64,000 nucleotides of DNA. It comes from Sulfurospirillum oryzae. GTDB lineage: Bacteria; Campylobacterota; Campylobacteria; Campylobacterales; Sulfurospirillaceae. The translations under genes and the position numbers were made by a program. The notes beneath the pieces are model-generated. The model did not search any database and was not told where the DNA came from. It saw nothing but the letters and a program-made list of their open reading frames with translations. The stretch's first letter is position 1. Each line of letters begins with the position of its first letter. The stretch is taken from the NCBI RefSeq assembly GCF_025770725.1, contig NZ_JANZKZ010000002.1, positions 1 through 64,000 on the forward strand, read 5' to 3'. Positions 12,151 through 18,895 of this stretch are shown one piece after another.

Positions 12151-12369
12151 AACAAGTACGTCAAACCTTGGCTTGGTATAAACGTGCCCAATCCCCAAAT
12201 CGAAGTCTCAGGACTCTACCACGATAAAAAGATAAAGTTCATTCCCGATGGCGTGATCGACCTGCGGTTTGATGTGATGATGAAAGAGTTAGGCTTGCCT
12301 ATTTTTGGGAAACATGATGCGTTCAATGATGCGGTGATGTATATTAAACTTCAAAATACAAAACTTTAA
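12151..12369 (+). pseudogene. Truncated second copy of the DnaQ-like exonuclease 3' end
   Basis: Matches the exonuclease gene from base 11224 to its end. A stretch of about 70 bases is identical, most other changes are silent, and there is one 12-base deletion (the TAMM codons). The copy starts abruptly at codon 127 and lacks the D35/E37 catalytic part, so it cannot be active. It has no start codon with a ribosome binding site. Mostly silent differences imply descent from a divergent functional allele rather than decay in place. Confidence 0.9.
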
Positions 12370-12764
12370 CACTTTCTATGAAGATCTTTGAGGGTAGAGT
12401 TTTTAAACATTTCATCAATAAGCTGTTTAGGTTTTGACCAACATTCGTGCAATGCACAATGTTCTCCTTGTCCACATAGACCTTCTCCCATAATGCAAAC
12501 ATCATCATTAAGATCGTTCATGGCTTCTAAAATATCATAGAGCGTTATCTCATCAACAGGTTTTGCAAAGATAAATCCACCATTTTTTCCTCTGGTAGAA
12601 CTAATAAATCCAGCTTTTCCTAAATTGGTCATAATACGAGTGAGGTATTTGTAAGGAATTTTCAATGTTTCAGAAAGTCCTTTTGCCGTATGCTGCTCTT
12701 CTTCATGGAGGCTCATGTGAGACAAGATACGTAGGGCGTATTCTGAAGTTGTTTTTAGTTTCAT
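12366..12764 (-). CDS. Rrf2-family iron-sulfur regulator (NsrR-like)
   Basis: A 132-residue repressor with the Rrf2 winged helix (MKLKTTSEYALRILSHMS, recognition region YLTRIMTNLGKAGFISSTRGKNGGF) and a cysteine cluster C90-x6-C97-x5-C103-x4-C108 that can hold an iron-sulfur cluster. It is divergent from the NO-reductase-like genes, which fits a nitric oxide sensor of the NsrR type. The C90-C97 spacing is one residue longer than in IscR, so the exact subfamily is uncertain. Its likely operator lies at 12927-12951. Confidence 0.83.
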   Translation of the reverse strand: MKLKTTSEYALRILSHMSLHEEEQHTAKGLSETLKIPYKYLTRIMTNLGKAGFISSTRGKNGGFIFAKPVDEITLYDILEAMNDLNDDVCIMGEGLCGQGEHCALHECWSKPKQLIDEMFKNSTLKDLHRKC

Positions 12765-12926
12765 GGTATTCTCCGTAAAATCGTGAGCTTCTTTAGATAG
12801 AAAAATTAATGTTATTGAGCGAAGAAGTCATCTGTATTGTATAGAAAAAATATTAAACACAGATAACACAGCCAATATAGTATTTTTAAAATAAGAAACT
12901 ATCAGGAATTTTTAATTTTTGCTTTA

Positions 12927-12951
12927 GTAGTATTGCATTGTTAAATACTAC
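12927..12951. promoter_or_regulatory. Likely operator of the Rrf2 regulator
   Basis: GTAGTATT (12927-12934) and AATACTAC (12944-12951) form a perfect 8-bp inverted repeat with a 9-base spacer. A further partial copy (GTAGTAATAATAC) follows at 12958. The site is 35 bp before the reductase start codon, in the gap shared with the divergent Rrf2 gene. Its size suits an Rrf2 dimer. Assignment is inferred from position and symmetry. Confidence 0.6.
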
Positions 12952-12985: not shown

Positions 12986-13573
12986 ATGACGTTTTTGAAC
13001 TCTTTAGAGTTGTTGGCATTCCATAACGTTGCGTATACAGTGTATTCAGTGCTGATTATCGCAATTATTGCTTGGTTTGGTTACAACCTTACACGCAGTG
13101 AAAAAGCTGAACCTATGGTGCGTATCCCTTTTTATGGGTTTATTGCATTTTTAGTTGCGGCGGGTGTTGGACATCACATTTTTACTTACAATGTGGTTCC
13201 TTGGGTTGCGCAGGACATTATGCGTGAAAGCATAAAGCCTGATCAGGTTTATAAAGTGACGATTGAAAAACATCAGTTTCAACTTCCAAGTGAAAAACTA
13301 GTCGTTGAATGCGGGCAAAAGGTGTTATTTGACGTAACCAGCCAAGATTTGGTTTATGGTTTTGGGTTGTTTAGAAAAGACCATACGATGGTCACCCAAA
13401 TGCAGGTTAATCCAGGTTCAAAAAATACTATTTTATGGACATTTCACGAAAATGGTGTTTTTGACTTGATGTCAACAGAGTACTCTGGCCCTAAAGGCAA
13501 TGGTATGTTCGTACCAAGTATTATGGAAGTCAGAGGCTGTAAGACAAACGTAGCTCAAGGAGGTTCTAAATGA
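12986..13573 (+). CDS. Subunit II of a non-canonical heme-copper nitric oxide reductase (no CuA ligands)
   Basis: A 195-residue protein with two N-terminal membrane helices and a cupredoxin domain like subunit II of heme-copper oxidases. At the CuA site the ligand positions read S163-T-E165-Y-S167-G-P-K-G171-N-G-M174 where an oxidase has C-x-E-x-C-x3-H-x2-M, and Y124 replaces the first His. Both cysteines and both histidines are gone, so it cannot bind CuA. From memory, the gNOR family of epsilonproteobacteria has this kind of subunit. AAAGGATGAGG before the ATG is a strong ribosome site. The gene overlaps the next by four bases. Confidence 0.8.
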   Translation: MTFLNSLELLAFHNVAYTVYSVLIIAIIAWFGYNLTRSEKAEPMVRIPFYGFIAFLVAAGVGHHIFTYNVVPWVAQDIMRESIKPDQVYKVTIEKHQFQLPSEKLVVECGQKVLFDVTSQDLVYGFGLFRKDHTMVTQMQVNPGSKNTILWTFHENGVFDLMSTEYSGPKGNGMFVPSIMEVRGCKTNVAQGGSK

Positions 13574-15225
13574 GTTTTATGAATGATCTCATTCATGGTG
13601 CAGACAGTAAATTTGATCATACGAGTCTGAATGCTTTACAAAAAGCAACCCTTCGAGCGGTTGTTGTCTCATTTTTATTTTATGGGCTTGCAGCATTAGA
13701 GGGTATGATTATGCGTGCGGCGTCAATAGCGCCTTCTATCAAACCTGTCAATGGTAGTGTCGATCATTACTTTGCGATTATGACGGTGCATCCTATTGTT
13801 GGTATTTTTGGGTCAACCTATCAACTGGTTTTTGCAGCATTTCTTTTCTTAGTGCCGTTTTTAACAAAAAAGCCTTTGTATAGCATTAAATTGGCCAATG
13901 CTACATGGATTTTAATTACGATTGGCACAATGGCATCTTGGTTAGCTTCATTTGTCTATAACTATGCGCCATTGTACACACTTTACTGGCCATTGCCTGC
14001 CGATACAACACAGTTTAAAGCGATTGGTGGTGTGATGTTTATCGTAGGTGTTGCACTCATTATGGTGGGAACATTACTGTTCATTTACAACATTTACGCA
14101 ACAGTGTTCTCAAAAGTAGGCGTACATAAAAACAAAACAACGAAAGAGCTTTTGATTTCTGGTTTTGGTATTGACGGTATGTTAAACCTCGTTCATAAAT
14201 TGACTGGAAAAGAGCCATACTCAAAAGAGCCTGCACTCTCATTACCCGTTGTTGCTATCTTTAGAGGAACGGTTGATACGTTCCTAGATGCATTGGTTAT
14301 TTTATCGGCGGGTGTTTTGGTATTGGTTTATCTTTTTGCTGATATGGGTGGCGTTAAGTTAGATGTGGCTTCCATTGATGCACTTTTATATAAAAACTGG
14401 TTCTGGTGGGGACTCGATCTTGTAGCCGATGGCTTGGTGCTTATCTATGTTGCGGGCTCATGGTATCTTTTAGCAACGCTGATTACAGGGCAAAAACTCT
14501 TTATGGAGAACGTTGCGCGTGCAGCGTTGATGCTTGAACTTTTGGTTTCGTGGATGGTCTGGTCTCACCACTTGCTTGCAGATCAAGGTCAACCTGAAAT
14601 GATGAAACTCATCTCAGGTGAGATGGTCACCGCATTTGAGCTTCTCACACAAGGTTTAGCACTTTTCATTACGCTTGTCACACTTTGGAAAGCGCGACCA
14701 CTTAAAATGACAATGGAGCTCAAATACCTTCTTGGGGGTTTGATCGGCTTTGGTTTAGCTGTTCCTGCGGGTATCATTCAAGCTGATATGGCAATGAACC
14801 GTGTGCTTCACAATACACAATGGATCATCGGTGCGCACGTTCATATCGCGATTATCGTTGGTCTTTATATGACACTTTACAGTGCTGTTTATGTGCTTTG
14901 GCCGCTTGTAACCAACAATGCGAAACTTTGGAGTACAAAACTTGCCAATGCGCACTTCTGGTTGCACCTCATTGGTGGTATCGGTATGGGTGCATTTATG
15001 GGTATGGCAGGACTTGATGGTATGCTTAGACGTCATCTTTATTTCAATGGCGAATACAATTTCTTTATGATTCTTGCAGCAATTTGTGGCACGATGTTGC
15101 TTGTTGCTTGGCTTCTTTTCTTGTTCAACGTCATTATGTCTGTTGGGCTAAAAGGTCTTATTGGTATCTTCTTACCATCTCATAATAAAGAAGCAAGTTA
15201 TGGCATTGAGCCAGCAAATGCTTAA
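13570..15225 (+). CDS. Catalytic subunit I of a non-canonical heme-copper nitric oxide reductase (gNOR-like)
   Basis: A 551-residue membrane protein with about 14 helices. Heme-copper ligands are visible: H74 in TVHPIVG (low-spin heme), H333-H334 in WSHHLL (active-site metal) and H423/H425 in GAHVHIAI (hemes). The third active-site ligand, 50 residues before the HH pair, is D283 in WWGLDLVAD where oxidases have His of HPEVY, and the cross-linked Tyr position is D287. Loss of that Tyr and of CuA in subunit II argues against oxygen reduction. With the Rrf2 regulator next door, NO reduction to nitrous oxide is the best reading. Confidence 0.82.
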   Translation: MSFMNDLIHGADSKFDHTSLNALQKATLRAVVVSFLFYGLAALEGMIMRAASIAPSIKPVNGSVDHYFAIMTVHPIVGIFGSTYQLVFAAFLFLVPFLTKKPLYSIKLANATWILITIGTMASWLASFVYNYAPLYTLYWPLPADTTQFKAIGGVMFIVGVALIMVGTLLFIYNIYATVFSKVGVHKNKTTKELLISGFGIDGMLNLVHKLTGKEPYSKEPALSLPVVAIFRGTVDTFLDALVILSAGVLVLVYLFADMGGVKLDVASIDALLYKNWFWWGLDLVADGLVLIYVAGSWYLLATLITGQKLFMENVARAALMLELLVSWMVWSHHLLADQGQPEMMKLISGEMVTAFELLTQGLALFITLVTLWKARPLKMTMELKYLLGGLIGFGLAVPAGIIQADMAMNRVLHNTQWIIGAHVHIAIIVGLYMTLYSAVYVLWPLVTNNAKLWSTKLANAHFWLHLIGGIGMGAFMGMAGLDGMLRRHLYFNGEYNFFMILAAICGTMLLVAWLLFLFNVIMSVGLKGLIGIFLPSHNKEASYGIEPANA

Positions 15226-15276: not shown

Positions 15277-15885
15277 ATGATACACTTAGAGCGCGTTGCG
15301 CGAGAGATTAAAACAATAGGTCTTTATGACTTGGTCTATCAAGATGTCGAAAAAGCGCTTGGTAAAAAGCATATTGAACTCATCGATATTGAAAACTGCT
15401 TACAAACACATCCCGAAATTCTGGAAGCTTACAAACAAACCAACCTCGAATATAACATCAGTAACATTCACATCAAAGCGATTGATGAAGCGAGTGTTAC
15501 TCTTACATGTAAAGATGACGTCAAACGTGTTAATGCCAATTTAGCAAAACTTCGTCAGATTGAAAAATATACAATAGATTTTGAACAAAGCTCCATCTTG
15601 GTCATTATCATGTCTATTGAATTTTTTGTCCTCTTTTCCGTGCAATATTTTATTGTCTTACTCAATCTAAAAGAGTGGCAATGGGAAATTTACGGTGTTT
15701 TTGGACTCTCCGTGCTTTGGGCTTGGTTGTATGCTAAAAAAGAGCGCAAAAAATTTGAATGCCATGCGCGTCATTATGCACAACTTTACGAAGAGACACT
15801 TCAACTTTTAGATGAACTTGAAACACATGGGTGTATTCATAAAAAAAGTTTAATGATTGAAGAGAGTAGCGAAGATCATATTTAG
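15277..15885 (+). CDS. Hypothetical membrane protein downstream of the NO reductase
   Basis: A 202-residue protein with a soluble N-terminal half, two hydrophobic helices (about 107-130 and 136-151) and a charged C terminus. I recognise no family. It starts 52 bp after the reductase gene beyond a stem-loop, so partial read-through from the reductase promoter is possible. The TCK sequence near residue 78 is encoded by a TTACATGTAA palindrome. Confidence 0.65.
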   Translation: MIHLERVAREIKTIGLYDLVYQDVEKALGKKHIELIDIENCLQTHPEILEAYKQTNLEYNISNIHIKAIDEASVTLTCKDDVKRVNANLAKLRQIEKYTIDFEQSSILVIIMSIEFFVLFSVQYFIVLLNLKEWQWEIYGVFGLSVLWAWLYAKKERKKFECHARHYAQLYEETLQLLDELETHGCIHKKSLMIEESSEDHI

Positions 15886-17839: not shown

Positions 17840-18895
17840 ATGGAAAATGAATCTACAAAACCCGCTTCGGGCATGGGCTTTTTTGAGCGTTATCTCACCG
17901 TATGGGTGATATTGTGTATTATCGCGGGTGTGGCTATTGGTCAGTTTCTTCCTATCATTCCACACACCTTGAGCCGTTTTGAATACGCCAATGTCTCCAT
18001 TCCTATAGCCATTCTGATTTGGCTTATGATTTACCCGATGATGCTCAAAATCGACTTTGCGAGTATTTTGGATGCGGGTAAAAAACCTAAAGGGTTGTGT
18101 ATTACGTGTACGGTCAATTGGTTGATTAAACCTTTTACCATGTATCTTATCTCCGCTTTCTTTTTTAAAGTTCTGTTTGTAAACTTTTTGCCTGAAAATC
18201 TCGCCAATGAATACTTAGCCGGTGCGATCTTACTAGGAGCAGCACCTTGTACGGCAATGGTGTTTGTATGGAGTCATCTCACCAAAGGCGATGCTGCTTA
18301 TACCTTGATCCAAGTTGCCGTCAATGACCTTATCTTGCTGATTGCATTTACTCCCATTGTGGCTTTTTTACTGGGTGTGAGCAATGTATTTGTACCTTAT
18401 GACACTCTGTTTTTATCGGTCATTTTGTTTGTAGTCATTCCCTTGTTAAGCGGTTATCTCTCAAGACGGTACATCATCAAGCACAAAGGGCTTGGTTACT
18501 TTGAAAATGTGTTTATTAAAAAATTTGATAAAACCACCATTCTTGGGCTTTTGCTGACGCTTATTATTATCTTTACGTTTCAGGGCGATGTTATTTTAAA
18601 CAATCCTCTGCATGTTCTTTTGATCGCTATTCCACTCACCATTCAAACCTTTTTTATTTTTTATATATCGTATGGTTGGGCACGTGTATGGAAGCTTCCT
18701 CATAACATTGCTGCACCTGCTGGAATGATCGGGGCGAGTAACTTTTTTGAGCTTTCCGTAGCCGTAGCGATTACTCTTTTTGGCTTGCAATCAGGTGCAA
18801 CATTGGCGACAGTTGTGGGCGTTCTTGTGGAAGTCCCTGTTATGTTAGCACTGGTACGCGTTGCGAACAATACTAGACATTGGTTTGAAAAGTAA
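17840..18895 (+). CDS. ACR3-family arsenite efflux transporter
   Basis: A 351-residue inner membrane protein with about ten helices. Family landmarks are FERYLTVWVILCIIAGVAIG at the start, IWLMIYPMMLKIDF, the conserved cysteine in GAAPCTAMVFVWSHLTKGD, and PAGMIGASNFFELSVAVAITLFG. The motif and length fit ACR3 rather than ArsB. It exports arsenite using the proton-motive force. AAAGGATG precedes the ATG. There is no arsenate reductase or arsR beside it, so arsenite is either met directly or reduced by products of genes elsewhere. Confidence 0.92.
   Translation: MENESTKPASGMGFFERYLTVWVILCIIAGVAIGQFLPIIPHTLSRFEYANVSIPIAILIWLMIYPMMLKIDFASILDAGKKPKGLCITCTVNWLIKPFTMYLISAFFFKVLFVNFLPENLANEYLAGAILLGAAPCTAMVFVWSHLTKGDAAYTLIQVAVNDLILLIAFTPIVAFLLGVSNVFVPYDTLFLSVILFVVIPLLSGYLSRRYIIKHKGLGYFENVFIKKFDKTTILGLLLTLIIIFTFQGDVILNNPLHVLLIAIPLTIQTFFIFYISYGWARVWKLPHNIAAPAGMIGASNFFELSVAVAITLFGLQSGATLATVVGVLVEVPVMLALVRVANNTRHWFEK

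Follow-up and report, generated by a model that had tools for sequence, protein, structure and literature searches.

gNOR is treated as an established class of heme-copper NO reductase, taken from Murali et al., in the passages of PMC12569097 and PMC10359470 that deal with it. In Table A4 of PMC8756737, which was adapted from Hemp and Gennis 2008, the defining feature is an Asp at the position of the active-site Tyr; the class has no proton channel, and its listed holders are Sulfurimonas, Sulfurovum, and Persephonella. The sources for the family, at the points where PMC8756737 and PMC12569097 cite them, are Sievert 2008, Hemp and Gennis 2008, and Murali 2024. Like gNOR, the eNOR, sNOR, and bNOR/CuANOR enzymes are NO reductases whose subunit II is a cupredoxin. 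However, Table A4 of PMC8756737 gives Gln or Asn at their Tyr position, rather than Asp. In cNOR (NorBC), Glu211 is an FeB ligand in the crystal structure (PMC10256718), Glu211 and Glu280 are reported to be critical for activity and proton uptake (PMC3431322), and FeB is inserted by NorQD (PMC9976466). The quinol site of bo3 oxidase is an Arg71-Asp75-His98 cluster (PMC10256718). Note that a survey of eleven Sulfurospirillum genomes found a nor cluster in one only, and described the NorBC type alone (PMC4794192). Hence, gNOR could have been overlooked in this genus.

Locus organisation and conserved substitutions

The window, which is the whole 64 kb stretch of DNA analysed, comes from a 2.63 Mb genome that is 99.96% complete. 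Two genes on the forward strand, with open reading frames that overlap by 4 bases, encode the enzyme. The first (12986-13573) specifies subunit II, a protein of 195 amino acids with two transmembrane helices and a CuA-type cupredoxin domain, from which the CuA Cys and His residues have been lost. The second (13570-15225) specifies subunit I, of 551 amino acids. Its Pfam match (COX1/PF00115, 7.8e-51), fold, and position in a tree identify this as the catalytic subunit of the heme-copper superfamily, holding two hemes together with a non-heme metal site. When compared with NCBIfam profiles, subunit I fell below every curated oxidase equivalog cut-off. Subunit II is directly upstream of subunit I here, as it is in almost every locus for which upstream DNA is available. 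Of the named relatives, Sulfurospirillaceae MAGs are nearest (92-93% identity), and close homologues occur in Sulfurimonas, Sulfurovum, Sulfurospirillaceae, and other Campylobacterota. Across genera, gNOR proteins are 62-97% identical. A gene for an ACR3-type arsenite efflux transporter (TIGR00832, over cut-off) is also near the operon, at 17840-18895 on the forward strand.

We aligned subunit I to E. coli bo3, and to other A-type, B-type, cbb3, and cNOR sequences. The three CuB His ligands and cross-linked Tyr of A-, B-, and C-type oxygen reductases are not all present. Instead, the motif D283-L-V-A-D287 (14416-14430, forward strand) has one Asp replacing a metal-ligand His and another replacing the Tyr. 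Specifically, D283 aligns with the first CuB His, H284 of bo3. D287 is four residues further on, the same distance that separates H284 from Y288 in bo3, and at which the FeB-ligand Glu is found in cNOR. Similarly, when compared with the FeB site of cNOR and qNOR, consisting of three His and a Glu (HxxxE), D283 takes the place of the first His and D287 that of the Glu. The remaining His ligands of the non-heme metal are H333-H334 (14566-14571, forward strand). The preliminary description had placed all four residues in this way, and the alignment bears this out. It had also counted 50 residues between D283 and H333, which is correct, and equated this with the spacing in bo3, which is not. The equivalent span is 49 residues in bo3 and the B-type oxidases, while cNOR has 51, and this difference explains a one-residue gap in the oxidases at position 287 of the multiple alignment. 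Among 99 distinct homologues, D283, D287, H333, H334, H74, H423, and H425 are invariant. Hence, the substitutions are due to neither chance nor sequencing error. H74 and H425 are the predicted bis-His ligands of the low-spin heme, with H423 the predicted proximal ligand of the high-spin heme.

A further carboxylate, E357 (14638-14640, forward strand), occupies a column that is hydrophobic (V, I, or L) in the aligned oxidases and is Glu280 of helix VIII in cNOR (Pseudomonas numbering). Two acidic residues next to the metal site are common to gNOR and cNOR, namely a carboxylate four positions after the first metal ligand, and the Glu of helix VIII. Conversely, cNOR has three His ligands, a heme c subunit, and a requirement for NorQD, and belongs to a separate clade. 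Residues of the D and K channels are absent from gNOR; those aligned with N124, D135, E286, T359, and K362 of bo3 are L, P, V, Q, and A respectively.

The best PDB matches of subunit II are CuA domains, including that of Thermus (3.6e-7). In an alignment to the Thermus domain, the former CuA motif reads S163-T-E165-Y-S167-G-P-K-G171-N-G-M174 (13472-13507, forward strand). The ligand positions Cys, Cys, His, and His have become S163, S167, G171, and Y124, and E165 and M174 are kept, as the preliminary description had proposed. The two Cys, two His, Met, and Glu of a CuA-containing enzyme are therefore not all found. Y124, E165, and G171 are invariant in the 99 homologues, where position 167 is always Ser or Ala. 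Hence, CuA binding is impossible in all members of this set.

An AlphaFold model of subunit I (pTM 0.81) has the superfamily fold, with Z scores of ~33 against aa3 oxidases and of 30.8 against cNOR (4xyd). Nearly all of the top fold matches are oxidases. Confidence is poor at the active site (pLDDT ~50 at residues 284-286 and 335-342) and metal geometry taken from the model was rejected for this reason. In a maximum-likelihood tree, for which the comparison set was A, B, C, and cNOR sequences and one Asn-type row, all sampled gNORs formed one clade (100/100), apart from the A, B, and C oxidases and cNOR. The clade is on the A/B side of the tree but, because long branches meet, deeper joins are not claimed. 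The Asn-type row, from Thermomicrobium, has a long and unreliable branch. This protein, encoded on a Thermomicrobium roseum plasmid (L167, 1755-3239), is annotated as a cbb3 oxidase. It has Asn at the Tyr position, as would be expected for an NO reductase of the sNOR or CuA-NOR type, and is probably misannotated.

The preliminary description had considered the locus a mismatch for cytochrome oxidase, and likened it to the gNOR of Epsilonproteobacteria. Both views hold: there is no cross-link Tyr, one CuB His is replaced, the CuA ligands are lost, and the grouping with true oxidases that would have counted against it did not appear. In common with the published family, the locus has Asp at the Tyr position, two subunits with the cupredoxin subunit II adjacent, no predicted proton channel of the D or K type, a clade of its own, and a Campylobacterota host. 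From its sequence, we assign the locus to the published gNOR family. The host differs from those already listed, in that it is a Sulfurospirillum-like nitrate ammonifier and lacks both NirS and cNOR. With the A-type (aa3, bo3) and B-type (ba3) oxidases, gNOR shares the subunit I fold, a conserved RR pair, and a CuA-type subunit II, but not the Tyr, the full set of CuB His ligands (one is lost), CuA, or the D/K channel residues. The enzyme would have its origin on the A/B-oxidase side, distinct from that of cNOR/qNOR.

Predicted metal site and supply of protons and electrons

The reaction proposed for gNOR is 2 NO + 2 e- + 2 H+ -> N2O + H2O. The non-heme metal would be held by H333/H334 together with D283, with D287 at the place of cNOR Glu211 and E357 at that of Glu280. 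Since two His are combined with carboxylates, we infer that the metal is iron, not copper, and the site of H333, H334, D283, D287, and E357 would fit non-heme iron. Note that no CbbQ/NorQ-type ATPase is encoded in the host genome. The carboxylates may also help proton delivery. Protons are predicted to come from the periplasm and gNOR would, for this reason, be non-pumping.

Two residues of subunit I bear on electron supply. E44 (13699-13701, forward strand) lies on D75, and H66 (13765-13767, forward strand) on H98, of the bo3 quinol site. Each is invariant (99/99). Taking the site as a whole, R71, D75, H98, and Q101 of bo3 correspond to L40, E44, H66, and S/A69 of gNOR, which is a match at two of four positions. 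Among ~30 comparison sequences, an acid in the D75 column is found only in bo3, and a His in the H98 column in bo3 and one B-type row. Hence, conservation of E44 and H66 points, with moderate support, to quinol as the donor. Given that CuA has been lost and these residues kept, (mena)quinol would be the likely electron donor, rather than cytochrome c.

A third gene and a divergent regulator

Downstream of subunit I is a third gene (15277-15885, forward strand), encoding 202 amino acids with a helical soluble part and a predicted transmembrane hairpin. The product belongs to no known family, having no Pfam or NCBIfam match. The helical model is confident (pLDDT 87) and no PDB entry matched its fold with E below 3. 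In 70 of 80 loci, a homologue immediately follows the subunit I gene. In a profile search of 397 genomes, the gene was found in 37, all of which have gNOR (37/37), and in none of the 352 genomes without. It adjoins gNOR in every carrier where the contig permits a check. Eight gNOR genomes gave no match, and most of the more divergent ones are among these. The product is probably an assembly factor or accessory subunit. A fourth conserved gene, of ~169 amino acids and likely encoding a membrane protein, follows the third in 61 loci (e.g. L064, 3714-4223) and is absent here. A more specific scheme is that gNOR is a three-component, CuA-less menaquinol:NO oxidoreductase, in which non-heme iron is held by two His and two or three carboxylates, convergent with cNOR, and the third-gene product is an undescribed dedicated subunit, or a metal-insertion factor replacing NorQD. 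We offer this tentatively, since as a whole it is somewhat less probable than not to be right.

Divergent from the operon is a gene for an Rrf2-family regulator (12366-12764, reverse strand) of 132 amino acids (PF02082, 5.4e-31), with three Cys arranged as C-x6-C-x5-C. The protein is over the rrf2 superfamily cut-off, with weaker matches to IscR and NsrR. The divergent gene is present at all Sulfurospirillum-like gNOR loci examined (this and four distinct others) and the three Cys are conserved in five aligned copies. Between the regulator gene and subunit II, 35-60 bases before the latter, is an operator-like palindrome, AGTAGTATT-N9-AATACTAC (12926-12951), that occurs once in the window. Two relatives have a strict match at the same place, and a third has a looser one. 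We rejected the regulator as a demonstrated NsrR; it scored 52.6 bits against an equivalog cut-off of 182, and no copy of the palindrome lies upstream of hcp in G012, the only relative that we checked for it. Instead, the protein is probably an Fe-S sensor controlling the gNOR operon, and NO sensing by its cluster is plausible. We found no mention in the literature of the E357 and Glu280 correspondence, the E44/H66 match, the third gene, or the Rrf2 gene and its palindrome, in a comparison that the primary gNOR papers lay outside; these features may already be known.

Genome context and competing explanations

Of 397 Campylobacteria genomes, 45 have gNOR. NirS was found in 40 of these, compared with 37 of 352 genomes without gNOR (odds ratio 68, p 6e-28), and NosZ in 36/45 compared with 91/352. 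Counting by genus, NirS is present in 17/19 with gNOR and 6/49 without (p 3e-9). Of 80 loci searched within 8 kb of gNOR, at least 14 have genes for heme d1 or NirS, and at least 31 have nitrate-assimilation genes. Note that, because many loci end at contig ends, counts of neighbouring genes are lower bounds. A second, cNOR-like enzyme, counted by score and length, with the HxxxE motif in the sample read in sequence, is encoded in 39 of 46 gNOR genomes. Hence, gNOR is mostly found as a second enzyme, and we rejected functional replacement of cNOR as a general rule. No cNOR-like protein was found in the other seven: four Sulfurospirillum-like genomes, including the host, together with G152, G158, and G370.

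Within its genus, gNOR is patchy (4/24 genomes). The host genome encodes NosZ, in an apparently full nos cluster, NrfA, Hcp, and a cbb3 oxidase. Neither NirS nor cNOR was found there. Hence, gNOR is the sole recognisable NO reductase of the host, in a comparison that covered the heme-copper types. Elsewhere in the host genome, L004 (1018-2595, reverse strand) and L003 (565-1827, reverse strand) encode degenerate heme-copper-like proteins of 525 and 420 amino acids, with weak COX1 similarity. A 487-amino-acid CcoN-like open reading frame in another Campylobacterota genome (L156, G394) has CuB His and heme His residues replaced (QSYD, GGQN, Y63), and is a ligand-poor paralogue. Separately, while Campylobacteria normally have cbb3, L150 (genome G189) from this class encodes an A-type (aa3-like) oxidase.

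Our data argue that the locus encodes a heme-copper-superfamily NO reductase making N2O from NO, and we consider this assignment probable. We favour it because the active-site substitutions are invariant, the clade is distinct, CuA is lost, E357 matches Glu280, and gNOR co-occurs with NirS. The E44/H66 match, the nearby heme d1/NirS and nitrate-assimilation genes, the gNOR genomes without a cNOR-like protein, and the divergent Rrf2 gene with its palindrome also speak for it. In the host, gNOR would most likely remove NO arising from nitrite ammonification, or from neighbours, under control of the Rrf2-type regulator. NosZ could then carry N2O on to N2. Points against this explanation are poor model confidence at the active site, the absence of a NorQ-type ATPase, retention of only two of four bo3 quinol residues, the Rrf2 score below the NsrR cut-off, and the usual presence of gNOR as a second enzyme.

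The last of these points would be accounted for if a protein of the same fold and family catalysed a different N-oxide step, such as NO dismutation, or turnover of nitrite, hydroxylamine, or N2O. Most gNOR genomes also have a cNOR-like NorB near NirS, gNOR loci are often near nitrate-assimilation genes, and we found no report of activity for purified gNOR in the literature. However, G158 and G370 have NirS, NosZ, and gNOR with no cNOR-like protein, which fits a plain NO reductase, and the gNOR carboxylates match those of cNOR. Hence, we regard a different N-oxide step as improbable. Less probable still is a divergent terminal oxidase that reduces O2 to water. While the oxidase homology is clear, subunit II is derived from a CuA protein, and oxidases dominate the fold matches, gNOR has no cross-link Tyr, has lost one CuB His and the residues of the D and K channels, and has an active site that is invariant in 99 sequences. 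Furthermore, the host already has a cbb3 oxidase, and gNOR distribution tracks NirS. An NO-binding sensor, or a decayed and non-catalytic oxidase relative, is equally doubtful: loss of CuA and one CuB His is what decay would give, and other degenerate heme-copper-like proteins do occur in these genomes, but the identity across genera, invariant heme and metal-site residues, and a third gene kept together with gNOR indicate strong purifying constraint.

As an NO reductase, gNOR represents a named but little-studied family, and the NO-reducing step is where the greenhouse gas N2O is formed. To the published family, our analysis adds a taxonomic setting, a third gene, residue-level predictions, and co-occurrence statistics. 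The third gene is the strongest new lead. Together with D283, D287, E357, E44, and H66, it allows the supply of metal, protons, and electrons to be addressed with point mutants. The host is a natural test case, being a nitrate ammonifier without NirS, in which gNOR is the only recognisable heme-copper NO reductase and has a nos cluster behind it. Hence, the function of gNOR can be tested there without a cNOR background.
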